DNA of 64,000 nt. It comes from Brachyhypopomus gauderio. Taxonomy: Eukaryota > Chordata > Actinopteri > Gymnotiformes > Hypopomidae. A model generated the notes under the pieces. That model ran no database searches, had not been told where the DNA came from, and worked only from the letters and a program-made list of their open reading frames with translations. The stretch lies in the NCBI RefSeq assembly GCF_052324685.1, contig NW_027506875.1:1-64000 (forward strand), read 5' to 3'. The first letter of the stretch is position 1. Each line of letters opens with the position of its first letter. The translations under genes were made by a program, and so were the position numbers. Below are positions 9,537 through 59,030 of this stretch, piece by piece.

Positions 9537-9850
9537 AGATGACCACTATGGTGATGAAGACCATTATGATGATGAAGACCACTATGATGATGATGACCAC
9601 TATTGTGATGATTTACATTTACATTTATGGCATTTGGCAGATGCCCTTATCCAGAGCGACTTACATTTTTATCTCATTTTCATAGAGCAATTGAGGGTTA
9701 AGGGCCTTGCTCAGGGGCACCTCAGTCATGACCTCAGGTCTGAGAATTGAACTCATGATCCTCCGGTCACAAGACCAATTCCCTAACCACCAGGCCACGA
9801 CTGATGATGACCTCTATGATGATGATGGTCACTATGATGAAGACTATGGT
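9537..9850. repeat. GATGAAGACCACTATGGT minisatellite, split by a SINE
   Basis: Units of GATGATGACCACTATG occur at 9537-9608 and 9801-9850, separated by a SINE. In unit B the same tract (29288-29560) is longer and lacks the SINE. Confidence 0.8.
9611..9801 (-). mobile_element. tRNA-derived SINE (V-SINE-like)
   Basis: Read on the minus strand, the element begins with a tRNA-like head (GTGGCCTGGTGGTTAGGGA, then GAGTTCAATTCTC as a B-box-like word). It continues through a conserved body (TGCCCCTGAGCAAGGCCCTT) and ends with AAATGTAAATGTAAAT repeats. This is the layout of the tRNA-headed SINEs common in fish. It is absent from the equivalent place in unit B, so it inserted after the duplication. 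Confidence 0.8.
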
Positions 9851-10312: not shown

Positions 10313-12186
10313 TGAGCTCTTAGTCACTTGCTGATGTAGAAGGCTTCCACCACAGTTTCACTCTTCTTTTTAGTTTTCTATATATGATTTTAAGTACATT
10401 TAATGAAGGTATATAGTGCCTTTCAAGGAACCCTAGATTACTTTACAATAAACATACAGAATTTGTACTGCCAGTCAGACAACATATTCTCAACCAGAAG
10501 AATCAGACCCCTGGGGGACTGAATCAGGTGCAGAGAGGGGAGAGAGAACACCACCAAGGACAGAACACCACCCACCACTGGACATACAAACACACAATCA
10601 CAGCCACTTACACAAGAACATCTTTGTTAGGGCAGTCAGCACTGGGCCTATAGCCACACAAGGACAACATTATTAGGGCAGACACACAATCATTCTCAAC
10701 TACCAGGACAATTCTCCCAACATCCATGTTAACCTGTTATTAACATGCACATAAGTTATCCTGGGGAACTGGAAGAAAAGCCACGGTAAGGCAAGCTAGG
10801 TTTATTAAAACAGCACCTTTCATACACACTGGCAATACAAAGTGCTTTACATCATAAAAGAAGCTTAAGACCCAAGGTCTATCACCTTAGGAAGGTCATT
10901 GCCCACAAAATACAATACATAAAAATTAAAAACAAGATTTTAAAGGAATAAAAATAGAAATGAAAATCAATTAATTAATTTAAAGAAATCAAATAAAATT
11001 AATTTTTTAATTAAGATAAAAGGATAATTAAAGATGATAAGTAAAACATCAATTAGAAATTGAGAGAAATTAAAATAAGAAAATAAGTGTAAGTAAAAGT
11101 TGCTGCCTCTCCTTACTTAGATCTTACCTTTGGCAGGACTAACTGATTAGTTCCTATACCTACGATTCCTGCCTGGCTCATAGCTCTGCAGCATGTCAGA
11201 TAGATAAGGGGAGACAAGGGGAGATCATGAACCTCCCGCCTTCTACAGGTGAGCTCCAGTGCAGAACCATGATCTATACCTATACCTGGACCTGGACCTG
11301 TACCTGGTCTCCTGTGGGTCGAGGCCCACATGAAAGACCAGGATGTTGCTGGTATACATATGTAGCTATTTTGCTGCCAAACCAGGACATATTCTGTAAA
11401 TATCATACTATTTGCAAACAACCAAAATAAAATTTGCAAAAACAAATAAAAACATGACTTACAAATACAAAATGTGATAGTTGTAAATTCATTTGTGATT
11501 TTCAAACAAATGCAGAGCTGCTTTCTAAAACATCACACTTAACAAGCAAATATAACATCAAAATATTCCCATATACATGTTCCACAACTGTAGTGTGTGG
11601 ATCACGGGACGTTTGGCACACTTGTAGCGGGAGTAACTTTCTGTTGAGATTTTCACAAACACACACGGCCATCGTACAAATATGTACTGATGCTCTGACA
11701 GGGTATGAGCTCATCAATCACAGAACAGCATAATATTCATTTATAATGGCAGTTCACAATGTTCTGGGTTGCTTTATGTGGAATGAACAAAACACAGAGT
11801 GTGGCATACACACAGAACAGACTAATGGAGTTCTAGTGAGGGTAGCAGGAAAATACCTTCATATTCAGCTATAAGTTCAGAACTGTGAGAAGTGAGTATC
11901 TGTCAAACTAAAATGTTAAAAGACGTCATGTCAGATATCTTCCTCTTTCCTGCTGTGAGGGGGAGGGCAGACCCTCTAACACAGAACAGCATGACTGCAA
12001 AGAAGCGTTATTGTTTTTTGTATTTTTGTTTTTTTTAAAGGCAAATTGTAATTGTATTTTTAAACTATTAAGAGCCTGACCATCCAATCCTGCCCCTCGA
12101 TGACAACCCTACACAAAAGGTGAGTTATGATCATCTAAGGAATACATTGGTATCGGGGTGTCCAACGTGAGGCCGTGTTCAAACTT
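10313..12186. other. Unit A downstream flank of the unrecognised gene
   Basis: AT-rich DNA with no recognisable gene. A minus-strand frame at 11113-11505 (130 codons) is conserved in unit B, but the flanks are equally conserved and it matches nothing I know. The tract probably contains the 3' UTR of the minus-strand gene. A small ACCTGG repeat is at 11283-11311. Confidence 0.5.
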
Positions 12187-15100
12187 TCACTGGCCCACTA
12201 ACTCACTTAATCTGTTCTTAATCTCAGCACACCATTGGACCCCACGCTGATGTTTGTACATGTGTGCCACGTTATCTTTTACCAACTTAAATCTCTCCAT
12301 CCTGCTCGGCTTCCTTCTGTTACTTCTGTCCTGATTTATCCACTTTTCCTTGGCAAAATGATCCACATACACTTCCTTCTCATCCATGAGATCTATGATG
12401 TAATTCACCTTGGAAACATTGTCACTAATTTCAATGTTAGTGGCAATGTTTGATTGAGCATAAGAATTTGGATTGAGCATAAGATTGAGCATAAGAAACA
12501 GAACTTCACGTAGTGCTGCACAATATATACCATACACCAGTGCATTGCAATTTACATAGAATTCCTCCTCCTCGAAGTGAACAACCATGTTTGTGCTGAT
12601 TTCACATTCTGTGTTTTCATCAAGACCGTGGTTACCTAATTCATTTATTAATGTGTCACTGTCAACTTGCTTGACACTATATATATGTTGGCTTTTTAAA
12701 AAATGCTTCAGTATTTTCTTATGAAATTTAAGGATGTCATTGTTGAAGACGTGTTCGCCTCGTTTAGATCTTTTAAGTTCTTCCATCAGTGGTTCTGTAA
12801 ACTCAAATTTTGTATCGATGAGTCTGATGATTTCTAGAACGTTACATCTGATCTTTTCCAGAGTTTTCACTTTGTCTATTGGCTTTGTCCATTTGCCTTT
12901 TTTGCTTTTTATTGCATTCTGAATATATTCAGCAATGTACCCCAGCCTGACCTCTGTTGGGAAAAAGCATTAACACAATAAATAAACATAAATAAATAAA
13001 ATAAAACAACACTGCTTACATAACAATGAATAAGAATACAAACAGAACAGATAATCTGAGATGTCTGACACCTGTTATGTCCTGCAGTCCCGCCGATCCC
13101 GTCTGTCCTTCTGAGGCTGCAGATGTCTGTGTTTTCTCAGGAATGGCCAACATCTGTAGACAGACAGAAACTCAGGAACATTTACCAGCCTCCATGTTTC
13201 CAACCAACTTGCCATCATACTGATTCAAATCATGTTCTCACAGAACTAGGTCTACCAGCCCGGAAAACATCAAACTAATGGGAAGAACCCTGGAGACTAC
13301 AGGGAACAAACTACTACACGAGGGCAACTACACGAGGGCAAATACATGAGGGCAACTACACGAGGGCAAATACACGAGGGCAAATACACGAGGGCAACTA
13401 CACGAGGGCAAATACACGAGGGCAAATACACGAGGGCAACTACACGAGGGCAAATACACGAGGGCAAATACACGAGGGCAACTACACGAGGGCAAATACA
13501 CGAGGGCAAATACACGAGGGCAACTACACGAGGGCAAATACACGAGGGCAAATACACGAGGGCAAATACACGAGGGCAAATACAAGAGGGTTAATACATG
13601 AGGGTGAATACATGAGGGTAAGTAAATACATGAGGGTAAGTAAATACATGAGGGTAAATACATGAGGGTAAGTAAATACACGAGGGCAAATACACGAGGG
13701 TAAGTAAGTACATGAGGGTAAGTAAATACATGAGGGTAAGTACATGAGGGTAAGTAAGTACATGAGGGTAAGTAAGTACATGAGGGTTAATACATGAGGG
13801 TAAGTAAATACATGAGGGTTAATACATGAGGGTAAGTAAATACATGAGGGTAAATACACAAGAGTTAATACATGAGAGTAAGTAAATACATGAGGGTTAA
13901 TACATGAGAGTAAGTAAATACATGAGGGTTAATACATGAGGGTAAGTAAATACATGAGGGTAAGTACATGAGGGTAAGTAAATACATGAGGGTAAGTACA
14001 TGAGGGTAAGTACATGAGAGTTTTCCCAGCCTCTGAAAACCCTCACTGATCTTCCTGGTTTTGGTGCATTTGTGTATTTATTGCATTGTTGTCGTGTGTT
14101 CGGTTTCAGTCTTGTTGGTTCAGTTGTTCTGTTTATGTCTGTGTTCTACATTTGGTTATTTTCTGTCTAGCCCATGTTGTTATGCTGTGTGTGATTGATA
14201 TTTAATTCTTAAATAATGATTATGACACCTACCCTCATGGGCTCCTGCAGAGATTCTTGAGGTGGAGCACACAGACTGGTTTTAATGGCCTCCTCTTTCA
14301 GCTTCACCACTGACTGGTTCCCTTCATACACAGCCAAGACCAACTCCACTGCCTCCTTCACTGTCCCAATGACAGGCAGGTCCTCTATAAACCCCACCCA
14401 CACTGATGGGCCGTCAGCTCGGAGTGGCGGGAGTCTGTGGATCAAGAAGAGTTCACAGCAAAATGGCGTACATGGTAAAAACCACCATGTTTAATCATGA
14501 GGCCCCTGAAGATCGCCACAGAGAAAACAATGTTTCTGCTCATGTATTCTAGTAACAAACAGGAGACAGAACCGGGAAAGGCTGGGAAAGTAAACAAATG
14601 TTTATTTCTAATCATGCACCCTGATTTATGTGGATACTTTTACCTCACATCAACATTGCAGTGTTCTCCTGAATCTTGTACATTGTGGGGGTCTATTAAC
14701 CAACTATTCTGTTACCATATAAACCTTCTCTCATTATCCTTAAAGCAACATGTTGAGTGTCTTCTATAGGTGAATAATAAACCCTCAACATCTGTAACAA
14801 TGTCATGAGTCACGAGGAGAGTTTGAACACAACAGCAGTTTACTCACAAGGGGTTTGATGATTAGACACCAATGATCAGACCTCACGCCAATGATCAGAC
14901 CTCATGTCAATGATCAGACCTCATGCCATCTGAGGACCACCCCAAGTTTATCAGCACCATACTTATTATGCTGTTTGAAGAAACTGTTAAATGTAGCATG
15001 TGTCTAATATTACAACTGTGTAAATGAATTGATGAGGCTTCTCTAAATGTAACCAGTTAAATTTGTGTTTAATTTTGTTGAAATTTGACTAAATCCTGAT

Positions 15101-15460
15101 TAATATTAATCAACTTTGTTTTGTTGATTTTCATAATGTATGTGCTACTGCACTGGCTAGTGCTTGATAGTACTTAATAATGTCAAGGACTTGATGGTTG
15201 ATTTGAGAAGGTCCACCTGCAAAGTACCACAGTACTCCACTCTCACACCTGCACTAAAAGCTCCTCACAGGTAGTGGTAGTCTCTGAAAGTGTACTGCAG
15301 TACAGATGAAATCTACATATTTTATATATATTTTATGTATATGACTTTTACCCCATCAAAATTAAATCCTCTGCATTTACCCATTTGTGCAGTGAGAGCA
15401 CATACACGCACACAAACATACACGCACATACACACACACACACACACACATACACATACA

Positions 15461-15499
<39 letters not shown>

Positions 15500-16553
15500 A
15501 CTTTCAGTAATTCAGATGCTCCTCGTTCCTAGTTAAGTACCCAATGAGAATTTAGTAATCCCCTAACACAATATTTATTTATATAACCCAATTTTTTAAT
15601 TATTATAACCCGATAATTTTATTTTATTTATACAGTGAATGAAGTTTATGAATTCTTATAATTAGGAAAAATCTGAATGTATATTAGTGTGTTATTAGTA
15701 TATTGTTAACGGGCCGCCCAATGGAGGATGGGTTCCCTTTTGAGTCTTGGTTCTCCCAAGGTTTCATCCTATTCCCCACCATCATAAGGAGTTTTTCCTG
15801 GCCACTGTCGCCTTTGGCTTGCTCATTAGGGTTCTGGACCCATAGTATTGTTAACCTTGTAAATCCTGTAAAGCGCTTTGTGACAACATGTGTTGTGAAA
15901 AACGCTATACAAAGAAATTTTGATTTGATTAGCCGGAATTTTGAGACATTTTATATTCGTTTATGATGAAGTTTGTACGTATTATCTGAAGGAGAGGGCA
16001 GACTGTCCCGCCGTCTTCTAACTCTAACCGGAAAGTCTAATTTCCGCTAAACGCTCTTAACTGCAGCTCGTGTTACAGCACTGCGCACAACAGAAACGCC
16101 CGTGTTCCGATGGTTTCGGTTTCGGGATTGTTCCCACCGAACCAGAGCTTGACGATGACAACCAGAACCCAAACTTTAAAAATATCTACCGATATCTACC
16201 GTTTCAAATTTAAGTCCCCTTCATCATACAAGCAAATCTGACATCGTACAAGTGATAGTCTATAAACATTTGACACACCAACTAAAATCTCTTCTTTCTA
16301 TCCATGTAGCTAGAGAACCATAAATGTGAATTATACAGTTGTATGTATTTTAATACTCCTTCACTGGCCGCCCCAGCCAAACTTCAGGTGCGCTATTTAT
16401 TCTGTATTGTTTCTCTCAACCACTCGCAACGGAGAAAATAACGGAACGTATTGCACTCAATACCGATCAGACGGGTTAATGTACTTACGTTTCTTCATCG
16501 TGTGATGGTCCAAATGAAGAGGAATATTCTCTCTGGTCAGTTGCACAAGACAT
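12187..16553 (-). CDS. Unrecognised four-exon gene, copy A (371 aa)
   Basis: Exons in transcript order: 16553-16489, 14434-14233, 13153-13072, 12953-12187. Each junction is GT-AG, the phases fit (2, 0, 1) and the frame stays open to the stop at 12187. The protein starts MSCATDQREYSSSFGPSHDE. Exon 2 encodes a short hydrophobic, helix-like segment (WVGFIEDLPVIGTVKEAVEL, then VLAVYEGN). Exon 3 is a 27-residue Ser/Thr/Gln-rich linker. Exon 4 (254 residues) is charged and mostly helical in character, with LGYIAEYIQN, GEHVFNNDIL, INELGNHGLD, VYGIYC, EVYVDHFAKEKW and a C-terminal RLSELVGQ. No signal peptide, classic nucleotide-binding motif or zinc site is visible. I do not recognise the family; the LPVIGTVKEAV helix faintly recalls teleost rapunzel-type proteins, but that is a guess. 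Compared with copy B it has an in-frame expansion near 12455-12500 (LNLMLNPNSYAQ). Confidence 0.75.
13319..14020. repeat. TACACGAGGGCAAA / TACATGAGGGTAAG minisatellite in intron 2 of copy A
   Basis: 14- to 18-bp units: the first half is mostly TACACGAGGGCAAA and TACACGAGGGCAAC, the second half TACATGAGGGTAAGTAAA. The equivalent tract in copy B is interrupted by two hAT elements. Units follow each other directly without unique spacers, so it is not a CRISPR array. The long open frames on both strands come from the repeat. Confidence 0.95.
14480..15700. other. Intron 1 of copy A, segment not shared with copy B
   Basis: After the exon 2 acceptor region the two copies stop matching (A 14480 to about 15340; B 39858 to about 40430). 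It contains three near-copies of AATGATCAGACCTCA at 14871-14925 and a CA microsatellite at 15400-15502. I see no gene. Confidence 0.5.
15709..15930 (+). mobile_element. 5'-truncated L2-type LINE 3' end
   Basis: It contains AAGGTTTCATCCTATTCCCC, GGAGTTTTTCCTGGCCACTG, TTGGCTTGCTCATTAGGG, AAAGCGCTTTGTGACAACA and a terminal GATTTGATT tail. The order matches the 3' end of the L2/Maui LINE at 54237-59030, read in reverse there. No coding part remains. Confidence 0.8.
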
Positions 16554-18294: not shown

Positions 18295-18660
18295 TGTCAC
18301 GGTGAGGAGGCCGGGTCGCCACCAGAGGGCGCGTGCATCCACACACACACCCACACTGCGCACTCCCCCTAGCACTAAGCCACTCCCTAGATCTCAATCA
18401 CCGCACTACTGACACCTGTGCCTTATTATGTGTTCTGCCTTTGTAAGCCCACAGGTCGCGTTGTCCAGTGCTGCACATTCATCTGAGAGAGCGACGCATC
18501 ACTGGACTCGCTATCAGTTCGTTGTGTGTTAAGAAGCATTCTAAGCTGGTGCTAATATTTCTACTAGAGCCCTTTATTGATTGTTTTGGTTGTCAGAGAT
18601 GGATAATAAAGAACACAACGTGCAACCTCCGCCTCCGGCTGCCTCTATCCCCGCGTTACA
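18295..18660 (+). repeat. 5' LTR of the tandem Gypsy element (366 bp)
   Basis: Starts TGTCACGGTG and ends CCGCGTTACA. AATAAA at 18604-18609 fits a poly(A) signal. Frames running through it (the one from 18468, and the upstream part of the gag frame from 18581) are incidental. Confidence 0.9.
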
Positions 18661-21600
18661 GAATGTGCAGCCTGAAGCAGCTGGAGGCGAGGAAGCTTCT
18701 CCATTGGAGATACTCGCGCTGCAAGGTAGAACCCTCGGCAGGCAGCAACAGGAACTGCAGGAACTACGTTCTGTCCTGTCATCTGTTACGAGCTGTCTGC
18801 AGACTCTCTCTGCACAGGCTGGTTCAGAGCAAGCCAGCAGGAGCAGATTTGAGAGAGCTCCCGTATCCTCTCCTGAAGCCTACGGCGGGGACCCGGAGAG
18901 CTGCGAGGGGTTTTTGGTTCAGTGCAGATTGTTTTTCGCTTACCAGCCCGAGTTAAGCGATCAGGCTAAAGTCTCCCCGAGAGACCGCGCTACCCGAGCC
19001 CATGCAGATAGGGGAGACCACCTCCCCTAGGACCACCGTTGGCACCGGGAGGGGTCGTCCCCGGGTGAGTAACTCCCTGACGGGAAATTTGCTGACTTGG
19101 GAGGTGACCGTGTCTCACGGGGATGTCTCTCTTGATCTGTGTGCCCTAGTGGACTCGGGAGCCGCGGGGAACATGATGCGACGGAGTGCGGCGGAGAGCC
19201 TGGGGGTTCCTCTGAAGAAGCTGGAGACGCCGAGGCACGTGCATGCACTGGATGGCCGACCTGTGGGCGGGGGGATTATTCGTTTCCGTACTGCACCTGT
19301 CCTTTTACGTGTTCAGGGTCGCACAGAACGAATCTGTTTCTATGTACTCCCCTGCACAATACATGCTATCCCGTTAGGTTACCCTTGGTTTAAGTTACAC
19401 AACCCGGTAATAAATTGGAACACGGGAAGGTTGCTTAGATGGGTCACGCCCCTCTGTGCAGACCGGTTCTCTCCTAAGGTGGCGGCCCTATCCACTAGCA
19501 TTGAGAGCCCCAACATCCAGGCCTGTCAGGAGATCCTAGGTCCGTATCAGGATCTAGCCGAGGTCTTTAGTGCAGCAAAAGCCACTCAGCTTCCTCCTCA
19601 TCGTCCATGGGATTGCAGTATTACACTCAAGCCGGGCGCTACGCCTCGGTCGTGTCTACCCCCTGTCTCAGGAGGAGGAGAGAGTTATGGGACAGTACAT
19701 CAGCGAGGCTCTCGCGCAAGGTTATATAACCCCTTCCACCTCACCTGCCTCAGCCAGCGTCTTCTTTGTTAAGAAGAGGGATGGTGGCTTGAGGCCATGC
19801 GTAGATTATCGAGGGCTCAATTCCCTTTTAGTGAACTACTTGTACCCTCTGCCTCTAGTGCCATCGGCATTGGAGCAGCTGCGGTCTGCGAGTGTTTTCA
19901 CTAAGCTCGATCTGCGCAGCGCCTATAATCTCATCCGCATCCGTGAAGGGGATGAGTGGAAGACGGCTTTCAGTACCACCACAGGGCACTATGAGTATCG
20001 CGTCCTGCCATACGGTCTGGCGTCAGCCCCATCGTTCTTCCAGGCATTCATCAACGAGGTATTTGAATAGATGCGTTGTCGCTTATATCGATGACATCTT
20101 GATCTATTCGCCATCCCCAGACCAACATGTGTGTGATGTACGGGCTGTCCTGGGCACACTCCTGCGCAATCGTTTGTATTGCAAGCTGGAGAAGTGTGAG
20201 TTCCACCTGTGGGAGGTGAACTTCCTGGGTTACGCCATCAGGCCAGGCGCTGTGCACATGCAAGCCGGTAAGGTGGAGGCGGTAGTCGGTTGGACGCAGC
20301 CACACGGCGCGAGCTCCAGAGGTTCCTGGGCTTCGCAAATTTCTATAGGCGGTTCCTCCGTGCGTATAGCCAAATCGCGAGACCGTTGACAGACCTGTTA
20401 AGAGGGGAAGCTAAGAAACTGCGCTGGACAGCAGAGGCGACAAGAGCATTCACAGACCTGAAACAAGCGTTCGTCGATGCCCCCGTACTGCACCAGCCTG
20501 ACCCGAATAAGCCATTCATAGTTGAGGTAGACGCGTCGAACATCGGTGTAGGGGCTGTTCTGTCTCAACGCCACAAGCGGAACAGCTCGCCTAAACCCGT
20601 CGCGTTTTACTCCAAAAAGCTCACTGCAGGGGAGCGCAACTACGGCATGGGGGACCGCGAGTTGTTGTCTATGCGGCTTGCGTTCAACGAGTGGAGGCAT
20701 TGGCTTGAGGGAGCGAAGCACCCCTTTATCGTGATCACGGATCACAAGAATCTCGAATACCTCAAGAGCACTAAGCGCATGAACGCAAGGCAGGCTAGAT
20801 GGTCACTGTTCTTTTCAAGATTCCGATTTCAGGTGACATACAGACCTGGCGACAAGAACCTGCGGGCAGATGCCTTGTCTCGTTCCTTCCTAGGAGTTGC
20901 GGAGTCCACCAGCGAGGAACCTGTACTGTCCCCGGACTGCTTCGTGGGATCCGTGGAATGGGATATCGACAGGGCAATCGCGGCGGCTAATCCCCATCCT
21001 AGCTGCCCTCCTCATTGAAGGTATGTGGCTCCTGTCCAGCAGTCAGCTCTCATCAGCTGGGCGCACACCTCCGTGGGGACTGGTCATCCCGGATCCACTA
21101 GAACGGCACAACTGCTCGGAGCTAAATACTGGTGGCTGGGATTGCACCGCGATGTGCTCGCACACATAGCCTCCTGCGCGGTATGTGCTCGCAGCAAGGT
21201 GCCACGCACACACCACCTGCAGGCAAACTCCACCCGCTGCCTATTCCGGAGCAACCGTGGACGCATATCGCACTGGATTTCGTCACGGACCTGCCTCCGT
21301 CCGAAGGTAACACCGTCGTCTTGGTCGTCATCGACCGATTCTCAAAAATGGTGCGGTTTCTCCCTCTGCCCGGTCTGCCCACCGCCTGGGAGACAGCGGA
21401 TCTCCTGTTCCAACACATATTCAGACAATTCGGATTGCCTGAGGATATAGTGTCGGACAGGGGGCCGCAGTTCACCTCGCGGGTGTGGCGAGAATTCCTC
21501 TCAAAACTAAACATCACGGTGAGTCTTACCTCGGGATATCACCCACAGGCCAACGGACAAGTGGAGCGCGCTAACCAGGAGCTGGGGAGGTTCCTGAGAG

Positions 21601-22068
21601 CGTACTGCAGCGAACACAAGGACGTATGGTGCGCGCTCCTACCATGGGCGAAATACGCGCAGAATTCCCTCACGCAGGCCAGTACAGGTAAAACGCCTTT
21701 CGAATGCGTTCTTGGTCGCCAGCCTCCCTTATATCCCTGGAACGCCTCTGCCTCAGACCAACCAGCAGTAGAGGAGTGGTGTAAGAGGAGTGAGAGCGTA
21801 TGGGAGGACACACACAGGCGCCTGAGTGAGGCAGTTGAACGCTTCAAGCGCAAAGCGGACCGCAGGAGAAGCGAAGCACCCCCCCTATCGTGTCGGAGAC
21901 AAGGTGTGGGTGTCTACCGAGGACGGGCGCTTGGGCAGGAGAGGCAAGCTAGGAGATCGCTATGCAGGTCCCTACGTCATAGTTAGACGCCTCAACCCCG
22001 TGACCTTCAAGATCAGCTTGCTGGTGGACTGTCGTTTGTCCAGGGTGTTTCACGTCTCTGCCCTGAGT
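18661..22068 (+). pseudogene. Gypsy gag-pol remnant, internal copy 1
   Basis: Readable in order: a Gag N-terminus with a coiled-coil-like Gln/Leu stretch (to about 19000) that runs straight into the protease region, so capsid and nucleocapsid are deleted; an aspartic protease core LVDSGAAG near 19147; reverse transcriptase with [29 protein letters not shown] and the YIDD box near 20085; RNase H (about 20380-20880, [14 protein letters not shown]); and integrase (about 21025-22060, [32 protein letters not shown]). Several frameshifts separate these blocks (near 19640-19690, at the YIDD junction near 20065, near 20290 and near 21200). A 7-C run at 21889-21895 shifts the integrase tail, where copy 2 has 6 C. 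It is not functional. Confidence 0.9.
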
Positions 22069-22418
22069 CCGGGTCGCCACCAAAGGGCGCGTGCATCCAC
22101 ACACACACCCACACTGCGCACTCCCCCTAGCACTAAGCCACTCCCTAGATCTCAATCACCGCACTACTGACACCTGTGCCTTATTATGTGTTCTGCCTTT
22201 GTAAGCCCACAGGTCGCGTTGTCCAGTGCTGCACATTCATCTGAGAGAGCGACGCATCACTGGACTCGCTATCAGTTCGTTGTGTGTTAAGAAGCATTCT
22301 AAGCTGGTGCTAATATTTCTACTAGAGCCCTTTATTGATTGTTTTGGTTGTCAGAGATGGATAATAAAGAACACAACGTGCAACCTCCGCCTCCGGCTGC
22401 CTCTATCCCCGCGTTACA
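22069..22418 (+). repeat. Central LTR, 5'-truncated (350 bp)
   Basis: Identical in extent to 18311-18660 and joined directly to pol at CCGGGTCGCCACCA. One visible change from LTR1 is CCAAAGGG for CCAGAGGG. Confidence 0.9.
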
Positions 22419-25400: not shown

Positions 25401-25825
25401 CATGGGCGAAATACGCGCAGAATTCCCTCACGCAGGCCAGTACAGGTAAAACGCCTTTCGAATGCGTTCTTGGTCGCCAGCCTCCCTTATATCCCTGGAA
25501 CGCCTCTGCCTCAGACCAACCAGCAGTAGAGGAGTGGTGTAAGAGGAGTGAGAGCGTATGGGAGGACACACACAGGCGCCTGAGTGAGGCAGTTGAACGC
25601 TTCAAGCGCAAAGCGGACCGCAGGAGAAGCGAAGCACCCCCCTATCGTGTCGGAGACAAGGTGTGGGTGTCTACCGAGGACGGGCGCTTGGGCAGGAGAG
25701 GCAAGCTAGGAGATCGCTATGCAGGTCCCTACGTCATAGTTAGACGCCTCAACCCCGTGACCTTCAAGATCAGCTTGCTGGTGGACTGTCGTTTGTCCAG
25801 GGTGTTTCACGTCTCTGCCCTGAGT
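22419..25825 (+). pseudogene. Gypsy gag-pol remnant, internal copy 2
   Basis: Same order of blocks and same lesions as internal copy 1, shifted by 3758 bp: protease core near 22905, reverse transcriptase with YIDD near 23843, RNase H about 24138-24640, integrase about 24783-25825. The only difference I found is a 6-C run (25637-25642) where copy 1 has seven. This leaves the integrase C-terminus open into the LTR (to 25927). The near-identity means a very recent tandem duplication, recent conversion, or an assembly duplication. Confidence 0.9.
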
Positions 25826-26175
25826 CCGGGTCGCCACCAAAGGGCGCGTGCATCCACACACACACCCACACTGCGCACTCCCCCTAGCACTAAGCCACTC
25901 CCTAGATCTCAATCACCGCACTACTGACACCTGTGCCTTATTATGTGTTCTGCCTTTGTAAGCCCACAGGTCGCGTTGTCCAGTGCTGCACATTCATCTG
26001 AGAGAGCGACGCATCACTGGACTCGCTATCAGTTCGTTGTGTGTTAAGAAGCATTCTAAGCTGGTGCTCATATTTCTACTAGAGCCCTTTATTGATTGTT
26101 TTGGTTGTCAGAGATGGATAATAAAGAACACAACGTGCAACCTCCGCCTCCGGCTGCCTCTATTCCCGCGTTACA
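25826..26175 (+). repeat. 3' LTR, 5'-truncated (350 bp)
   Basis: Same extent as LTR2 and ends GCGTTACA before the CCTAG duplication. It differs from LTR1 at three sites I can see: CCAAAGGG, GCTCATATTTC for GCTAATATTTC, and CTCTATTCCCG for CTCTATCCCCG. Confidence 0.9.
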
Positions 26176-31862: not shown

Positions 31863-34800
31863 TCACTGGCCCACTAACTCACTTAATCTGTTCTTAATCT
31901 CAGCACACCACTGGTCCCCAAACTGCTGTTTGTACATGTCTGCCACGTTATCTTTTACCAACTCAAACCTCCTGCTTCGCTCTATTCTGTTACGTTTGTC
32001 CTCTTTTATCCACTTTTCCTTGGCAAAATGATCCACATACACTTCATTGTCATTCATGTGATCTATGATGTCATTCACGTTGGAAACATTGTCACCAATT
32101 TCAATGTTTGGATTGAACATAAGAAACAGATTGTTACGCAGTTCCGCACAATATATACCATACACCACTGCATTGCTATTTACATAGAATTCCTCCTCAT
32201 CGAAGTGAACAATCATGTTTGTGCTGATTTCACATACTGTGTTGTTATCAAGACCGTGGTTACCTAATTCATTTATTAATGTGTCAATGTCGTCTTGATT
32301 GGGATTAAATGCATGTTGCCTTTTATAAAAAAAATCCTTCAGTAATTCTTTATGAAATGTAAGGATGTCATTGTTGAAGACGTGTTCGCCTCGATTAGAT
32401 CTTCTAAGTTCTTCCTTCAGTGGTTGATTAAATGCAAAGTCTGGCTTGATAAGTCTGATGATTTCTTGAACTTTATCGGTGATATTTTCCAGAGTTTTCA
32501 CTTTGTCTATTGGCTTTGTCTGTTTGCCTTTTTGTTGGCCTTTTTTGCTTTTATTTACATTCTGAATATAGTCAGCAATGTACCCCAGCCTGACCTCTGT
32601 TGGGAAAAGCATTAACACAATAAATAAACATAAATAAAATAAAACAACACTGCTTAAATAACAATGAATAAGAATACAATCAGAACAGATAATCTGAGAT
32701 GTCTGACACCTGTTATGTCCTGCAGTCCCGCTGATCCCGTCTGTCCTTCTGAGGCTGCAGATGTCTGTGTTTTCTCAGGAATGGCCAACATCTGTAGACA
32801 GACAGAAACTCAGGAACATTTACCAGCCTCCATGTTTCCAACCAACTTGCATGAGGGTAAGTACATGAGGGTAAGTAAATACATGAGGGTAAGTAAATAC
32901 ATGAGGGTAAGTACATGAGGGTAAGTAAATACATGAGGGTAAATACTAGGGATGCAAATGATTAATCGACTTTCGATTAATTGTCGATTAAGACGTTACT
33001 CGATCAAAATGTATTAATCACGATTAATCATTAGAGAGCGCTCCTGTATTAACTTGAACAGAGCGTAAGAACGAGAGGTGAACACGTGTCGCGAAAGACC
33101 AGAGTGGAAAACAAAATGAAGCGGGCGAAAAGACGTGCGGTGTGGGACCATTTTGAAGCGTGTTCGGGAAACGAGGCAGAAACTGCGTAATCCAGAAAAT
33201 CCCAAGGAGGGAAACTTTATTTTCCACGCAACTCAAACAACAGCACTGTTCTCTCCCCCTCCCCTGGCGCGCGCAGGCGCCTCTCCCCCAGTGTCACTTA
33301 AAGGGCCAAGTGCCTGTCTGTTAGGGAACTCGCTGCGAGGAGTAGTAGTCGCTACAGTTTCAACATTGTTAATTTAGGCAAAGAAGTCAAATGTTCTGTG
33401 TGTAATGCGGTATTGAAGTACAACAGTTCCACTAGCTCACTCAATTATCATTTGAACACCATGCATGCAGCTGTCCTGCATATCACCAGTGCACCTGGTC
33501 AACCTAAAATCACAGCTACACTGGGAAGGCGAGCGTTTTCGAAGCTCGCTACAAAAAAATACGAGTGAGCTAAAAACAAAGCTATCTACTGCTACTACTG
33601 TAGCCCTTACAACAGATTGTTGGACGGCTCTAACAACAGAAAGTTACATTACCGTGACGTGCCACTACACTGACGAGAACTGGCAGCTAAAATCTGCAGT
33701 GCTGATTACGACGAACATGTCGGATAGACACACCGCTGACAGTTTAACTGACAAGCTCAATGATGTTGTGGAAACTTGGGCACTCTCCGGTCGCGTTACA
33801 GCATGTGTTCACTACAAAGTAGGGCTGCACGATTAATCGTATTTTTATCGTTATCGCGATGTGAAGTTTCACGATAAACACATCGAAAGAGCCACGATAA
33901 CTCCTTGAATAACAGCAAACTCTAATTGCGTTATCCTCGTCCAGCAATAGAGGGAGCTATTCGCGCTGCAGACTATGATCACGTGACGTAAGTAGGCAAG
34001 AGGCATAGTGAGGCAGAGTTGCCAGGTTCGCGGTTTTCACGCCAAATTGGGCTTGTTTGAAAATCCAGCCCCGGGTAAAAATTCTGGGGCCGCGGGGTGC
34101 GGTTTTTTGGGCTACTTTTGAGTTGGGCTACTGCGGAAGTTACAAGTCAACACTAAGAATCGATCGCGATATAATACTTAATTTGTCTCCAGTTCACACT
34201 CGCAACACCCCCCCCCCCCCCCCCCCCGCCGACAACTTACACTCGCAGATTTTGTGCGGAAAACTTTTGTAGGACCTGGCAACCCTGGAGTGGGGTGAAC
34301 ACGCTCATCAGACACGCGATTTGGTTTAAGCCTGGTTTACACTTGATGCGGCGCGAGGGTCCGGGAGGCGAAAATAACGTAATCGCGGTGGCTTCGCCCG
34401 TGTGCAATTGCCTCGCGCGCTGTCGATTCACGAGGTCGTGCACCTCTCGAATTTTGTACGTTCTTTTCTCGGCGCAATGAGAACAGTCATGTTTGCAGGG
34501 TTCATACACCTATACAAGGTGGAATTCAAGCACTTGTATGTCACTTTCAAGGTCCATTTCAATAATTCCCAGCACGTTATTGAATTAAATATTTATACAT
34601 ATACTCTAATGATTCGAAATAATTCGCTTTTTTATCACATTATTTAATGTTATTATTTATTTAAAGTTCGCGCGCGCCGCGTCTCGGCGCAATGAGAACA
34701 GTCATGTTTGCAGGGTTCATACACCTATACAAGGTGGAATTCAAGCACTTGTATGTCACTTTCAAGGTCCATTTCAATAATTCCCAGCACGTTATTGAAT

Positions 34801-37800
34801 TAAATATTTATACATATACTCTAATGATTCGAAATAATTCGCTTTTTTATCACATTATTTAATGTTATTATTTATTTAAAGTTCGCGCGCGCTGCGTCTC
34901 GGCGCTATGAGAACAGTCATGTTTGCAGGGTTCATACACCTATACAAGGTGGAATTCAAGCACTTGTATGTCACTTTCAAGGTCCATTTCAATAATTCCC
35001 AGCACGTTATTGAATTAAATATTTATACATATACTCTAAATGATTCGAAATAATTCGCTTTTTTATCACATTATTTAATGGATATTTATTTTCAAAACGC
35101 CCAATCTTAACGTCTTCACGTTCTCTCATGTTTCGTCCTGGAATTACAAGAGGCTCGTATTTGTTAACCTAATACAAGAGAATTGTTCAGTCAGACAGAT
35201 ATTTGTTGTGCAACGAAGTAGTTACAATTTCAAGCCTTTTCAAATACTTTAGCCTAAATTCCAGCACTTTTCAAACCTGAAACACAAAGCAACATTAAAA
35301 TTGGTCAGGTAAAAGTTCATTCCCCTGTATTTGAGGGGTGTTTTTTTTTATACTACTAGGCCTACATATCGTTTCGGACAACACTGCAAAGAATGTGACA
35401 CGGCAAGATTAAACGCTTCCGCCGGAGGTTAACGAGGTGTGCAGAGTCGCTCACTCGTGAAAGTATAAACCTAGATTGAATCTATTGTTGAATAAACCTG
35501 CAAAATATTTGGAATTATTCTGGATTCATTACACAGTAAAAAACAAAACAAATTAACGTGCTGCTGTTCAGAGAGACACTACATTTCTGTATTTTAATCT
35601 TAATTTATCGTGGTTCACATCGATATCGGGATATCCAACAACGTTATCGCACATCGCAATTCTAGTCCATATCGTGCACCCCTACTACAAAGCTAGAAAC
35701 ATTGTCCAAACATGGGCTCAATAATATTCTGTTTGGCTCTCTATTTAATTTCTTCTTTTTTTTAAACATTTTTTTAAATGTCTAATGTTTCAAATTGAAC
35801 TGAGCCGGTCCTTAATTTATTCCTTTTTTAAAATGAAAGAATGTATTTTGTTATACCATAAAAATTTCCTCATGCATAATTACTTGAACAATATATAATA
35901 TAATACAATATAATTATCATAATATAATATATACTTTTTGAACAAAGTGTTTTAACTACACTGCTCAAAAAAATAAAGGGAACACTTAAAAACAACACAA
36001 TGTAACTCCAAGTCATCCACACTTCGTGTTCAGATAGGAAGCAACACTGATTGTGAATCAATTTCAACTGCTCTTGTGCAAATGGAACAGACAACAGGTA
36101 GAAATTAGAGATTTTCAACTGATTTCAAAGATTTTTATTAATTGAGATCTAGGATGTGTTATTTTAGTGTTCCCTTAATTTTTTTGAGCAGTATATTTAG
36201 CTGATATTTTTAAAAGCCCTATTGAAACACAGGTGAATTCAGGTGAAATTCAGGTGAAAAACGCCGCTTATCGATTAATCGAAAGTCGATCGATAAGATC
36301 AGTCAACTAACGATTAATGAATTAATCGATAATTTGCATCCCTAGTAAATACACAAGGGTTAATACATGAGGGTAAGTAAATACATGAGGGTAAGTACAT
36401 GAGGGTAAGTAAATACATGAGGGTAAGTAAATACATGAGGGTTAATCCATGAGGGTAAGTAAATACATGAGGGTAAATACACAAGGGTTAATACATGAGG
36501 GTAAGTAAATACATGAGGGTAAATACATGAGGTTAAATACATATGGGTAAGTAAATACATGAGGGTAAGTACATGAGGGTAAGTAAATACATAAGGGTAA
36601 GTAAATACATGAGGGTAAGTACATGAGGGTAAGTAAATACATGAGGGTAAGTACATGAGGGTAAGTAAATACATGAGGGTAAGTACATGAGGGTAAGTAC
36701 ATGAGGGTAAGTAAATACATGAGGGTAAGTACATGAGGGTAAGTAAATACATGAGGGTAAGTACATGAGGGTAAGTAAATACATGAGGGTAAGTAAGTAC
36801 ATGAGGGTAAATTCATGAGGGTAAGTACATGAGGGTAAGTACTAGGGATGCAAATGATTAATCGACTTTCGATTAATTGTCGATTAAGACGTTACTCGAT
36901 CAAAATGTATTAATCACGATTAATCATTAGAGAGCGCTCCTGTATTAACTTGAACAGAGCGTAAGAACGAGAGGTGAACACGTGTCGCGAAAGACCAGAG
37001 TGGAAAACAAAATGAAGCGGGCGAAAAGACGTGCGGTGTGGGACCATTTTGAAGCGTGTTCGGGAAACGAGGCAGAAACTGCGTAATCCAGAAAATCCCA
37101 AGGAGGGAAACTTTATTTTCCACGCAACTCAAACAATAGCACTGTTCTCTTCCCCTCCCCTGGCGCGCGCAGGCGCCGCTCTCCCAGTGTCACTTAAAGG
37201 GCCAAGTGCCTGTCTGTTAGGGAATTCGCTGCGAGGAGTAGTAGTCGCTACAATTTCAACATTGTTAATTTAGGCAAAGAAGTCAAATGTTCTGTGTGTA
37301 ATGCGGTATAGAAGTACAACAGTTCCACTAGCTCACTCAATTATCATTTGAACACCATGCATGCAGCTGTCCTGCATATCACCAGTGCACCTGGTCAACC
37401 TAAAATCACAGCTACACTGGGAAGGCGAGCGTTTTCGAAGCTCGCTACAAAAAAATACGAGTGAGCTAAAAACAAAGCTATCTACTGCTACTACTGTAGC
37501 CCTTACAACAGATTGTTGGACGGCTCTAACAACAGAAAGTTACATTACTGTGACGTGCCACTACACTGACGAGAACTGGCAGCTAAAATCTGCAGTGCTG
37601 ATTACGACGAACATGTCGGATAGACACACCGCTGACAGTTTAACTGACAAGCTCAATGATGTTGTGGAAACTTGGGCACTCTCCGGTCGCGTTACAGCAT
37701 GTGTTCACTACAAAGCTAGAAACATTGTCCAAACATGGGCTCAATAATATTCTGTTTGGCTCTCTATTTAATTTCTTCTTTTTTTTAAACATTTTTTTTA

Positions 37801-40509
37801 ATGTCTAATGTTTCAAATTGAACTGAGCCAGTCCTTAATTTATTCCTTTTTTAAAATGAAAGAATGTATTTTGTTATACCATAAAAATTTCCTCATGCAT
37901 AATTACTTGAGCAATATATAATATAATACAATATAATTATCATAATATAATATATACTTTTTGAACAAAGTGTTTTAACTACACTGCTCAAAAAAAAGGG
38001 AACACTTAAACAACACAATGTAACTCCAAGTCATCCACACTTCGTGTTCAGATAGGAAGCAACACTGATTGTGAATCAATTTCAACTGCTCTTGTGCAAA
38101 TGGAACAGACAACAGGTAGAAATGAGAGATTTTCAACTGATTTCAAAGATTTTTATTAATTGAGATCTAGGATGTGTTATTTTAGTGTTCCCTTAATTTT
38201 TTTGAGCAGTATATTTAGCTGATATTTTTAAAAGCCCTATTGAAACACTGAAATTCAGGTGAAAAACGCCGCTTATCGATTAATCGAAAGTCGATCGATA
38301 AGATCAGTCAACTAACGATTAATGAATTAATCGATAATTTGCATCCCTAGTAAGTACATGAGGGTAAGTACATGAGGGTAAATACATGAGGGTAAGTACA
38401 TGAGGGTTTTCCCAGCCTCTGAAAACCCTCACTGATCTTCCTGGTTTTGGTGCATTTGTGTATTTATTGCATTGTTGTCGTGTGTTCGGTTTCAGTCTTG
38501 TTGGTTCAGTTGTTCTGTTTATGTCTGTGTTCTGCATTTGGTTATTTTCTGTCTAGCCCATGTTGTTATGTTGTGTGTGATCAGTGATGGCTAAGTTACC
38601 TTGAGAAAGTAATCCGATTACTGATTACTGATTACTCCTTTTAAAAGTAACTTAGTTACGTTACATATTACTTGATTTTAAAAGTAACTACGTTAGATTA
38701 CAAGTTACTTTAGTAGTTACATTCAGCAGCAAAATAAATTTTTCCAATACTCACTTTATTGGAAGTGCATTTTTAACAGTAACAATGTATTGAAGCAGGT
38801 TCGGTAACCGAGGCAGAAACTGCTTAATCCAAAAATCCCGAGGAGGGAAACTTTATTGATAACGCAACCCTGGCGCGAGCAGGCTCCGCCCCCCAGTGTC
38901 ACTTAAAGGGCAAGACTCGCCGTGATGAGTAGGAGTCGCTACAGTATCTCCTGACATTACGTTTGTGTAGCTGCGCGGTATTATTTGTAAATTTATTTGT
39001 AAACGTAATACAAGCGAACTGGGGTGGATTTCCCGAAACGTTCGTAGCGCCAAGTACTTCGTAACCTCGTATGAAGCTACGAACGTTTCGGGAAACCCAC
39101 CCCAGTTCAGTCAGACAGCTATTTGTTGTGAAACGAAATACCATTACAATTTCAAGCATTTTAAAGTAGGCTACGTTAGTCAAAATTCCAGCACTTTTCA
39201 AACGTGAAACACAAAGCAACATTAAAATTGGTCAGGTAAATGTTCCTTTCTCTGTTTTTGAGGGGTGTTTCTTTATACTACCACATATCGTTAAGTGAGG
39301 ACACTGCACAAAATGACTTGTAAAACGTGCTCGCGCTCTCACAGGGTCGCGCGCAGCGTGCGGAGTCGAGCGCTACGGTCAGACGCAAAAGTAGAACTGA
39401 GCCAAGAAGAAAAAATATATATTTTACTAGGGAAAATATAAATAGTAATGCACAGTTATTTGGATAAGTAACTTTAATCTGATTACTGGACTGGAAATAG
39501 TAGCGCGTTATATTACTCGTTACCGAAAAAAGTGGTAAGATTAGAGTAACGCGTTACTGACATCACTGTGTGTGATTGATATTTAATTCTTAAATAATGA
39601 TTATGACACCCACCCTCATGAGCTCCTGCAGGAATTCTTGAGGTGGAGCACACAGACTGGTTTTAATGGCCTCCTCTTTCAGCTTCACCACTGACTGTTT
39701 CCCTTCATACACAGCCAAAACCAACTCCACTGCCTCCTTCACTGTCCCAATGACAGGCAGGTCCTCTATAAACCCCACCCACACTGATGGGCCGTCAGCT
39801 CGGAGTGGCGGGAGTCTGTGGATCAAGAAGAGTTCACAGCAAAATGGCGTACATGGTAAAAACCACATTATGCAAAGTGGAATTAGTTTATTGTAGGAGT
39901 TTTACTAGTCTGAAGTAGCATTTAAACACAAAGTACCCGTTTGCTAATGCTGCTGACGCTGGGTCAAGCACTGATGCAGCCCAGGGGAAGAGTCACCGCC
40001 GCCGAAAACAGGTTAAATGTATTAAATGTTGGCTTACATTTCAAATCTCATGTTTAGCTGAATAAACATGTTATCAACCCCTTTTAATGTACAGTATGTA
40101 GGCTTACAAATTCATGTTTGACTGAATAAACCGTTGAACACGAGTAGCCTACATTTTATTGAGCATGTTTTTTTTTAATAAAAGTAGAACAGCTTTCTCA
40201 AGCAGTCATTGATGCATTTTGGAAACAGGAGATGAGCCCCTGGTCTAATGCGCCCTCTGTATTAAGAAACCCTATCTCAAAAACTGACTTTTAGTCATTA
40301 CTTGGGTAGCACGCATATTCTGAATGAGCTATTTTAATCTAGATTAATCTAGATTCATTTCAAGATTTCAGTGAGATTAATCTAGATAAAAAAATTTATC
40401 TATGCCCACCCCAAATATATATTAGGTATGTGTGTGTGTTCTCACTGCATAAATGGGTAAATGCAGAGGATTTAATTTCGTATTATGGGGTAAAAATCAT
40501 CACAATTGG

Positions 40510-40555
<46 letters not shown>

Positions 40556-41470
40556 TGATGGCTAAGTTACCTTGAGAAAGTAATCCGATTACTGATTACT
40601 CCTTTTAAAAGTAACTTAGTTACGTTACATATTACTTGATTTTAAAAGTAACTACGTTAGATTACAAGTTACTTTAGTAGTTACATTCAGCAGCAAAATA
40701 AATTTTTCCAATACTCACTTTATTGGAAGTGCATTTTTAACAGTAACAATGTATTGAAGCAGGTTCGGTAACCGAGGCAGAAACTGCTTAATCCAAAAAT
40801 CCCGAGGAGGGAAACTTTATTGATAACGCAACCCTGGCGCGCGCAGGCCCCGCCCCCCAGTGTCACTTAAAGGGCAAGACTCGCCGTGAGGAGTAGGAGT
40901 CGCTACAGTATCTCCTGACATTACGTTTGTGTAGCTGCGCGGTATTATTTGTAAATTTTTTTGTAAACGTAATACAAGCGAACTGGGGTGGGTTTCCCGA
41001 AACGTTCGTAGCGCCAAGTACTTTGTAACCTCGTATGAAGCTACGAACGTTTCGGGAAACCCACCCCAGTTCAGTCAGACAGCTTGTGAAACGAAATACC
41101 ATTACAATTTCAAGCATTTTAAAGTAGGCGACGTTAGTCAAAATTCCAGCACTTTTCAAACGTGGAACACAAAGCAACATTAAAATTCATCAGGTAAATG
41201 TTCCTTCCCCTGTTTTTGAGGGGTGTTTCTTTACACTACCACATATCGTTACGGGAGGACACAGCAAAGAATGACATGTAAAACGTGCTCGCGCTCTCAC
41301 AGGGTCGCGCGCAGCGTGCGGAGTCGAGCGCTACGGTCAGACGCAAAAGTAGAACTGAGCCAAGAAGAAAGCAAAACTATATAATTTTACTAGGGAACAT
41401 GTAAATAGTAACGCATAGTTATTTGGATAAGTAACTTTAATCTGATTACTGGACTGGAAATAGTAGCGCG

Positions 41471-41558
<88 letters not shown>

Positions 41559-42061
41559 GCGCGCAGTACAACAGACACGCCCAGTGGTTTCGGTCTCGGG
41601 ATTGTTCCCACCGAACCAGAGCTTAACGATGACAAGTAGAACCAAAACTTTAAAAATATCTACCGGAATTCGGTCCGTATTCTCTCGCCGTTTTCGTTTC
41701 AAATTTAAGTCCCCTTCATCATACGAGCAAATCTGACATCGTACAAGTGATAGTCTATAAACATTTGACACACCAACTAAAATCTCTTCTTTCTATCCAT
41801 ATAGATAGAGAACCATAAATGTGAATTATACAGTTGTATGTATTTTAATACTCCTACACTGGCCGCCCCAGCCAAACTTCAGGTGCTATTTAATCTTCAT
41901 TGTTTCTGTTTCTCTCAACCACTCGCAGCGGAGAAAATAACGGAACGTATTGCACTCAATACCGACCAGACGGGTTAATGTGGAAATACTACTTACGTTT
42001 CTTCATCGTGTGATGGTCCAAATGAAGAGGAATATTCTCTCTGGTCAGTTGCACAAGACAT
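31863..42061 (-). CDS. Unrecognised four-exon gene, copy B (360 aa)
   Basis: Exons in transcript order: 42061-41997, 39815-39614, 32791-32710, 32596-31863. Exon sizes 1-3 (65, 202, 82 nt) equal those of copy A, all junctions are GT-AG with the same phases, and the frame is open to the stop at 31863. Exons 1 and 3 encode the same peptides as copy A; exon 2 differs at three residues by eye (YEGK for YEGN, and two near QEFLQEL). Exon 4 is strongly divergent, roughly three quarters identical by eye, yet keeps LGYIADYIQN, GEHVFNNDIL, INELGNHGLD, YVDHFAKEKW and the C-terminus RLSELVGQ. It has a four-residue insertion in the Lys/Gln-rich start and lacks copy A's repeat expansion. Intron 2 is about 6.8 kb because of inserted hAT elements. 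Two open paralogues with shared gene structure argue for real genes. Confidence 0.75.
32850..32946. repeat. TACATGAGGGTAAGTAAA minisatellite, copy B, part 1
   Basis: Left part of the intron 2 minisatellite, interrupted by the hAT element at 32947. Confidence 0.9.
33465..33836 (+). pseudogene. hAT (ZBED-type) transposase fragment, element 1
   Basis: The frame encodes TTDCWTALTTESYITVTCHY, LKSAVLITTNMSDRHTA and GRVTACVHYK, matching the start of the hAT transposase catalytic region (the DCW and RHTA blocks). It breaks at the nested hAT inserted at 33820 and resumes as KARNIVQTWAQ after 35693. Most of the catalytic core is missing, so it cannot be functional. Confidence 0.8.
33820..35684. mobile_element. 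Second hAT nested in element 1, TSD CTACAAAG
   Basis: Ends TAGGGCTGCACGATTAATCG and ATATCGTGCACCCCTA, flanked by CTACAAAG at 33812-33819 and 35685-35692. The matching site in element 2 (near 37709) is uninterrupted. The interior has no transposase and includes a three-fold 215-bp tandem repeat, a poly-C run (34208-34227) and GC-rich stretches. Confidence 0.93.
34471..35085. repeat. 215-bp tandem repeat, three copies
   Basis: Copies begin at 34471, 34686 and 34901 with GGCGCAATGAGAACAGTCAT and contain GCAGGGTTCATACACCTATA and GGTCCATTTCAATAATTCC. Copy 3 differs at a few bases. A related single copy occurs in reverse orientation near 59700-59880. Confidence 0.93.
35957..36193. mobile_element. 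Tc1/mariner MITE in hAT element 1
   Basis: Ends CACTGCTCAAAAAAAT and ATTTTTTTGAGCAGT, bounded by TA on each side. Same site as 37981-38212 in hAT element 2, so it was in the common ancestor of the two. Confidence 0.85.
36345..36842. repeat. TACATGAGGGTAAGTAAA minisatellite, copy B, part 2
   Basis: About 500 bp of direct repeats between the two hAT elements. Open frames in it are artefacts. Confidence 0.9.
37361..37747 (+). pseudogene. hAT (ZBED-type) transposase fragment, element 2
   Basis: Uninterrupted version of the fragment in element 1: the TTDCWTALTTES block, the SDRHTADSL block, then CVHYKARNIVQTWAQ and a stop. It keeps only the N-terminal part of the hAT core and lacks the C-terminal dimerisation region. 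Confidence 0.8.
37981..38212. mobile_element. Tc1/mariner MITE in hAT element 2
   Basis: Same element and position as 35957-36193, with a shorter A-run at the left end (CACTGCTCAAAAAAAAGGG). Confidence 0.85.
38350..38408. repeat. TACATGAGGGTAAG minisatellite, copy B, part 3
   Basis: Last few units, followed by unique intron sequence shared with unit A (14021 onward). Confidence 0.85.
38582..39568. mobile_element. Non-autonomous hAT element (987 bp), TSD TGTGTGAT
   Basis: Starts CAGTGATGGCTAAGTTACC and ends CGTTACTGACATCACTG, flanked by TGTGTGAT at 38574-38581 and 39569-39576. Unit A shows the empty site (GTGTGTGATTGATATTT near 14187). It lies in intron 2 of copy B. Confidence 0.93.
39858..40430. 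other. Intron 1 of copy B, segment not shared with copy A
   Basis: AT-rich sequence without a recognisable gene or clean element ends. The short tract 40433-40500 is the reverse complement of 15341-15403 in copy A (TGGGTAAATGCAGAGGATTT), so a repeat lies here in opposite orientations in the two copies. Confidence 0.5.
40511..40552. repeat. TA microsatellite
   Basis: Pure TA run directly before a hAT element. A second TA run follows the element (41472-41541, then CA to 41558). Confidence 0.9.
40553..41474. mobile_element. Non-autonomous hAT element, 3' end replaced by TA repeat
   Basis: Same family as 38582-39568, starting CAGTGATGGCTAAG. The match ends at AGTAGCGCGTTATAT, where a TA microsatellite takes over, so the last roughly 90 bp including the 3' terminus are missing. 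It probably inserted into TA repeat DNA that later expanded. Confidence 0.85.
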
Positions 42062-49289: not shown

Positions 49290-51888
<2,599 letters not shown>

Positions 51889-57891: not shown

Positions 57892-57987
57892 AGTCTCAAT
57901 CCTATGGGATCTTGGTGACGCCTCTAAGCAGCTCGCAGACAGACGGTTTAGCCCGTTAGTCTGCGGCCTGGTCGCGACTCTGGTTAG

Positions 57988-58902: not shown

Positions 58903-59030
58903 GAATAAATCAAAACACTTACCGTGTCTAGCCGATTTATACAAACTTACGCTAGCTGATTTTTAGAAGCAGAAAGTTGATCAGCGGCCGGAATATTCAG
59001 CTGCCCGTCTTGACGGTGGAAGTACTATCT

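Follow-up and report, generated by a model that had tools for sequence, protein, structure and literature searches.

Many loci in teleost genomes are labelled 'uncharacterized', and the gene family analysed here is one of them. Its closest catalogued relatives, such as the NCBI models LOC118241593 of Electrophorus, LOC108278447 of Ictalurus, LOC109080831 of Cyprinus and LOC114773123 of Denticeps, are homologous to it over most of their length and carry placeholder names for which we found no family definition. We studied it in Brachyhypopomus gauderio, where two copies, gene A (12187..16553) and gene B (31863..42061), lie within positions 1 to 64,000 of contig NW_027506875.1 (assembly GCF_052324685.1), a stretch of 64,000 nucleotides (nt) referred to below as the window. 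This is a conserved multi-copy family, with a conserved block in exon 2, a variable linker, a helical domain holding the motif R-G-E-H-V-(F/I)-N-N, and an exon 4 of which much of the remainder is diversifying. The family is undescribed in the literature and family databases that were searched.

A described teleost system that resembles it in its mode of evolution is a subset of TRIM genes known as finTRIM. This innate-immune subset is reported to be multi-copy and to have diversified through duplication and positive selection (PMC2657112). Our family is likewise multi-copy and apparently under selection, but it has no sequence or domain relation to that subset, and no TRIM-type domain appeared in our Pfam scans.

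Genes A and B and the segment that carries them

Both genes consist of four exons on the minus strand, with matching intron phases and GT-AG boundaries at 6/6 introns, as follows.

16489..16553, minus strand: gene A exon 1, 65 nt, start codon at 16553, 0 differences from gene B
14233..14434, minus strand: gene A exon 2, 202 nt, holding the conserved N-terminal block VWVGFIEDLPVIGTVKEAVELVLAVYEGN
13154..14232, minus strand: gene A intron 2, mostly a satellite-like array with units of the ACATGAGGGTAAGTAA type
13072..13153, minus strand: gene A exon 3, 82 nt, linker rich in Ser/Thr/Gln
12187..12953, minus strand: gene A exon 4, 767 nt with the stop codon, helical C-terminal domain, strongly divergent among copies
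12739..12771, minus strand: conserved RSKRGEHVFNN motif in gene A exon 4, residues 178-188 (coordinates derived by hand from the exon table)
41997..42061, minus strand: gene B exon 1, 65 nt, start codon at 42061
39614..39815, minus strand: gene B exon 2, 202 nt
32710..32791, minus strand: gene B exon 3, 82 nt
31863..32596, minus strand: gene B exon 4, 734 nt, stop codon included

The two open frames encode products of 371 (A) and 360 (B) amino acids (aa), and the exon sizes, phases, splice sites and open frames reported in a preliminary description of the window were all recovered. That description had called the gene unrecognised, which has to be amended: NCBI already holds 'uncharacterized' model proteins for both copies, namely LOC143487799 (P0001), 100% identical to A over its full length in a protein search, and LOC143487783 (P0003), of 360 aa and the same sequence as the translation of B. 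The proposed neighbourhood of zer1 agrees with a ZER1-like domain found in the open reading frame (ORF) at 2150-2683 by a domain scan of the window (E 5e-25).

The identical exon layout of the two genes had been offered as evidence that they are genes, an argument that falls away because the whole segment, introns and flanks included, has been duplicated. Exons 1, 2 and 3 differ between A and B at 0/65, 5/202 and 1/82 bases (3 nonsynonymous and 3 synonymous changes in all). Intron 3 differs at 2/113 bases, the intron 2 pieces at 0/59, 2/174 and 1/47, and the start and end of intron 1 at 0/51 and 20/375, so that identity of the intron pieces runs from 94.7 to 100%; the 3' flank differs at 17/1173 bases and the upstream flank at 13/122. 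What establishes a real gene is conservation across species, and on that evidence A and B are real four-exon genes, annotated yet nameless.

Searched across the entire assembly (840 contigs, 797 Mb), A gave 15 exon-level matches at five places. Besides A and B these are copy C (387837-393123 on the same contig, protein P0002), copy D (contig C79, 31025-34358, protein P0004; its exon 1 was not located in the stretch taken), as well as a stray copy of exon 2 (contig C1). Because A served as the query, the count of at least four gene copies is a lower bound. B, the one paralogue announced earlier, is upheld, although the family has more than two copies and is present in many teleosts. The satellite-like array of ACATGAGGGTAAGTAA type in intron 2 is common to copies A-D (window 13250-14020 and 36344-36842; stretches L009 and L010).

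Divergence and selection in exon 4

By comparison of the copies, exon 4 is an island of divergence with an apparent signal of diversifying selection, which the preliminary description had missed. A and B differ there at 84/719 bases. In 60-column windows, divergence climbs from 12200, on the stop-codon side, and is back to background at 12965, just beyond the exon 4 acceptor, with two further raised windows in the 3' flank (11961-12020, 6/60; 12081-12140, 3/60). The four indels that separate A from B in exon 4 (4, 1, 14 and 2 aa) are each in frame. Counted by the Nei-Gojobori method, nonsynonymous changes affect 73/582 sites and synonymous changes 12/135, giving nonsynonymous and synonymous divergences of 0.137 (dN) and 0.095 (dS). 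The nonsynonymous excess over near noncoding DNA (22/1617) has p 1e-25; measured against all noncoding pieces (55/2114), the nonsynonymous excess has p 3e-19 and the synonymous excess p 5e-4.

All four copies were compared over 230 gap-free exon-4 codons by codon maximum likelihood, using a custom script, not PAML, on what are four paralogues of one genome. Model M0 gave an omega of 1.86 (p 0.0065 against 1), and M2a was preferred over M1a (p 4.3e-6), placing about 40% of the codons in a class with omega 4.5. The posterior exceeded 0.9 at 21 codons, none of them inside RSKRGEHVFNN, EEEFYVN or YVDHFAKEKW. Pairwise omega values in the six pairs were 1.45, 0.82, 1.72, 1.17, 1.68 and 1.35, and intron 3 differed at only 2-6/109 bases in pairs among the four copies. 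Among 24 informative exon-4 sites, 8 join A with B and C with D, 6 join A with C and B with D, and 10 join A with D and B with C; sites of the same tree type are mildly clustered (p 0.03). Because the informative sites conflict in tree signal and cluster, gene conversion among the copies is suggested. When three segments, picked after the site patterns were seen, were each given their own tree and branch lengths, omega was 1.71 (p 0.019) and M2a had p 4.5e-4. Some of the codons thus have an omega exceeding 1, as in a positively selected family, with a caveat for recombination. We read the pattern as the probable outcome of both processes, an exon 4 that is older than its homogenised surroundings or has been exchanged, and changes within it that are biased towards replacement.

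Fast change of a last exon beside a near-fixed remainder is typical of genes in an evolutionary arms race. Tentatively, and with somewhat less than even confidence, we take these proteins to be an undescribed teleost family of soluble intracellular innate defence factors whose exon 4 diversifies against a fast-changing partner. A host-defence family would fit best because copies turn over, a fixed core stands beside a diversifying remainder, and the surroundings are homogenised. The protein would be soluble and intracellular, its N-terminal block serving membrane association or oligomerisation, and the exon-4 domain would bind that partner, for which a component of a pathogen is the likeliest candidate. 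The remaining gene and its flanks would stay uniform through gene conversion, and selection would hold exon 4 different between copies. The steps from diversification to defence, and from a conserved hydrophobic block to a role in membranes or oligomers, are our inference.

Several observations weigh against this reading. Synonymous sites of exon 4 are also raised over near noncoding DNA (12/135 against 22/1617, odds ratio 7.1, p 3e-6), so that age or a mosaic history, but not selection, accounts for part of the divergence island. Between A and B alone, the comparison of nonsynonymous with synonymous change in exon 4 is not significant (p 0.15), one of the six pairs (A-C) has an omega below 1 (0.82), and recombination is able to inflate M2a. 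Exon 2 shows 0-2 synonymous against 1-6 nonsynonymous differences, with replacements ahead in 5/6 pairs, so that among the copies a purifying exon 2 does not stand out cleanly from a diversifying exon 4; these counts are small. Divergence is raised outside exon 4 as well, at the end of intron 1 (20/375), in the upstream flank (13/122) and in one 60-base stretch of the 3' flank, where 6 bases differ. Lastly, the 700 bp upstream of each of A, B and C contain no interferon-stimulated response element (ISRE, at most one mismatch), exact gamma-activated site (GAS) or exact NF-kB site. The view that selection accounts for all exon-4 divergence was dropped, since synonymous sites are raised too and the tree signal conflicts.

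Some of these figures would suit ordinary recent duplicates under relaxed constraint, in which the flanks were made uniform by conversion and exon 4 stayed old, with no adaptive change: the synonymous divergence of exon 4, roughly sevenfold the level in near noncoding DNA, the conflicting informative sites and the p of 0.15 for A against B. Relaxation should, however, stay at or below an omega of 1, whereas M0 gave 1.86 (p 0.0065) and the segmented analysis 1.71 (p 0.019). The frames are also open, the A/B indels fall in frame, and the RGEHV, YVN and YVD stretches are conserved throughout teleosts, which makes this account unlikely in our view. The absence of interferon-type promoter sites upstream of A, B and C would agree with a fast-evolving protein of reproduction or another genetic conflict (gamete interaction, meiotic or maternal conflict) in place of defence, for which the same signature of copy turnover, omega above 1 and conserved surroundings is expected. 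Most gamete-recognition proteins, however, need a secretion signal, and none was evident by eye in the members that were read; we regard such a role as quite unlikely.

A conserved family and its distant relatives

Exon 1 and the beginning of exon 2 vary between species. The best conserved part is the block of exon 2, in which P42, V43, I44, G45, E49, V51, V54, L55, A56 and G60 are invariant in an alignment of 35 homologues. The block had been likened to a short hydrophobic helix. Hydrophobic it is: across four fish proteins its mean hydropathy is 1.15-1.58, a value considered for a possible pore-forming or membrane-inserting protein. It does not look like a classical membrane helix, the best 19-residue mean there being 1.16. 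The Ser/Thr/Gln-rich character of exon 3 was confirmed as that of a linker, residues 81-111 of A lying below 50 in the model confidence score (predicted local distance difference test, pLDDT). The exon-4 domain is all-helical in the model, with ten-residue pLDDT means of 67-97 over residues 181-370 of A and, for the distant member P0069, of 74-98 (mostly above 90) starting at residue 121. Within the landmark RSKRGEHVFNN (178-188), G182, H184, V185 and N187 are invariant in the 35 homologues, as are E247, Y249, N253 and D314 further on in the exon (A numbering); V313, A317 and W321 are additional conserved landmarks. Of the four copies, only A has an in-frame 14-aa insertion, at about 12440-12499 of the window, with repeats of TTATGCTCAAT in it.

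The preliminary description could not assign the protein to a family, and no confident full-length match to a well-characterised one turned up when it was sought. In Pfam, A reached at best E 0.098 (13.3 bits against a cut-off of 27); none of the 35 homologues scanned singly passed its cut-off (best E 0.0014, TMV_coat, 5 members), and among 8 more members the strongest result, DUF2345 in P0075 (E 1.2e-4), reached 22.3 of the 30.7 bits required. NCBIfam had no match for A and at best 17.4 bits against a cut-off of 146 among the members, in P0069, and PADLOC recovered no described family (best E 0.0025 among 7, cut-off not given). Against the PDB, A alone gave 0 matches at E 10 and a profile gave two, the better being a non-significant E of 0.096 (kinesin KIF19); viral structures gave 0 matches at E 0.001. 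Comparison of the exon-4 models of A and P0069 with the PDB produced no convincing match. SNARE Habc domains, talin, a cytochrome bo3 subunit and TIPE were rejected as fold relatives, all being at background level; for the SNARE Habc three-helix domains (vti1b, 2qyw; syntaxin-6, 1lvf) the Z scores lie within the helical-bundle background and there is no sequence match, so that they are not relatives on this evidence. A text search of the literature for 12 locus names and four sequence motifs of the family, with most subscription journals outside its reach, found no mention, and there was nothing on this family among the matches listed for topic and species.

HEPN RNases are characterised by an R-X4-6-H motif, and A contains R178-X5-H184. 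H184 is invariant, but the arginine column holds K or S in distant members (KSKRGEH in P0069, SSKRGEH in P0071), for which reason this candidate was rejected. As to the HEPN four-helix fold, the motif precedes a helix in both models (A and P0069) instead of lying inside one, and no HEPN entry is among the fold matches listed. More generally, the exon-4 domain might be an enzyme or small-ligand binder in which the conserved polar stretch and the E, N, Y and D residues form an active site and the variable surface tunes regulation. The eight invariant exon-4 residues named above would suit this, as would the motif G, H, V and N, still invariant in a 48-row alignment with distant relatives; however, neither the family searches nor the fold searches matched an enzyme, and conserved polar residues may equally be structural, so that we hold the idea to be improbable.

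Homologues outside Brachyhypopomus cover 62-100% of A at 30-48% identity (E 8.5e-85 to 7.2e-22). With A as query, 37 proteins, A included, were found at E 1 or below; a 35-row profile found 41 at E 10 or below (weakest 1.2e-72), and a profile from three divergent members found 54 at E 1 or below. Scoring in the two profile searches was limited to the candidates with the most words in common (7992 and 7997), so that percomorphs, zebrafish and non-teleosts are not thereby shown to lack the family. The matches with a named source represent gymnotiforms, catfishes, cyprinids, loaches, Denticeps, herrings, anchovies, a smelt, mormyrids and Arapaima. A tree of 36 rows unites the four Brachyhypopomus copies (99/99), with Electrophorus as their neighbour (100/99), and also the six Denticeps copies included (100/100), 10 Denticeps loci being among the matches; copies seem to have been born repeatedly within lineages. 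The full-length frames of four relatives on short contigs (P0007, 326 aa in 1340 bases; P0016, 320 in 1240; P0027, 339 in 2027; P0041, 324 in 1062) look like spliced transcripts, because the equivalent frame spans 4.4-10 kb in the window.

Two database entries call for comment. P0021, labelled Pangasianodon gigas, is 78% identical to the cyprinid relative P0015, the other aligned catfish proteins being 53-66% identical, and is possibly contaminated or mislabelled. P0056 of Alosa sapidissima, a full-length member, bears the NCBI name 'cyclin-dependent kinase 2-interacting protein isoform X1', which looks misassigned.

Three environmental proteins (P0068-P0070; ENA, JGI) share the N-terminal block and an RGEHVINN helical domain with the fish proteins, at 26-30% identity to a Denticeps member. 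They keep P-V-(V/I)-G-T in the block, and at the place of the variable fish linker they have hydrophobic Gly/Ala-rich stretches (mean hydropathy 1.38-1.66), which suggests an ancestral membrane-linked role. In P0071-P0075 the sequence stops at one common point past the motif, and the contigs that carry two of these proteins measure 1.87 Mb and 0.31 Mb; the shared break point and large contigs suggest an intron there, and hence a eukaryotic origin. A wider proposal, which we rate as somewhat unlikely, is a new animal family with a novel helical fold around RGEHVNN, whose distant members would carry a membrane-inserting Gly-rich hairpin and whose exon-4 cassette would, in fish, be swapped and mutated for defence, conversion fixing the rest. 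Such diversification would be comparable to that of the variable exons of major histocompatibility complex (MHC) genes.

Mobile elements and the standing of the family

Gene B has its exon 2 enclosed by two elements that we take to be of the hAT class, given their terminal inverted repeats and the 8-bp duplication.

38582..39568, no strand assigned: hAT-like element in gene B intron 2, terminal inverted repeats, 8-bp duplication TGTGTGAT at both sides
40553..~41476, no strand assigned: second hAT-like copy in gene B intron 1, right end disappearing into a TA microsatellite

On contig C1 (stretch L011, 2703-5717) a 3.0-kb copy of the unit formed by element, exon 2 and element is 97.8% identical to window 38581-41476 where aligned. 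Its 201 compared exon bases equal those of B, including the three replacements of B relative to A, and the splice sites are intact. Because this unit is flanked by an 8-bp target-site duplication, GTTATAGT, and its exon bases are identical to B, exon 2 of B has evidently been carried to C1 within a composite transposon of two hAT-like elements.

That exon 2 itself has moved between two hAT-like elements, and that the window holds many genes of mobile elements, could be taken to mean that the family is transposon- or virus-derived sequence in a repeat-rich region. The 797 Mb yielded four gene copies and one stray exon, however; the genes are spliced and have homologues in many teleosts, no credible transposon or viral domain passed its cut-off, and 49 pattern matches in viral contigs and 8 in prokaryote contigs included 0 confirmed relatives by tblastn. 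We consider such an origin highly improbable.

Other elements stand elsewhere in the window. Tandem retroelement coding pieces at 18447-21986 and 22205-25927, presumably Gypsy-like, encode an aspartyl protease, RNase H and integrase, with ORFs 3758 bases apart. On the minus strand, a retroelement at 54928-58962 has a 1019-aa endonuclease and reverse transcriptase frame right after a 324-aa GDSL lipase-domain frame, a Tc1/Sleeping Beauty-type transposase has an open frame of 348 aa (50357-51403), and the 3' element of an UnaL2 long interspersed nuclear element (LINE) at 9624-9677 is the sole RNA-family match in the window.

The family is of interest for the signature of diversification confined to a single exon, for a confidently modelled domain that has no match among the solved structures searched, and for a range from osteoglossomorphs to otophysans and a smelt. 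If the defence reading is true, it would be a new type of protein in fish innate immunity, perhaps with relatives beyond vertebrates; if it is not, this is still a conserved family without a name, and in need of one.

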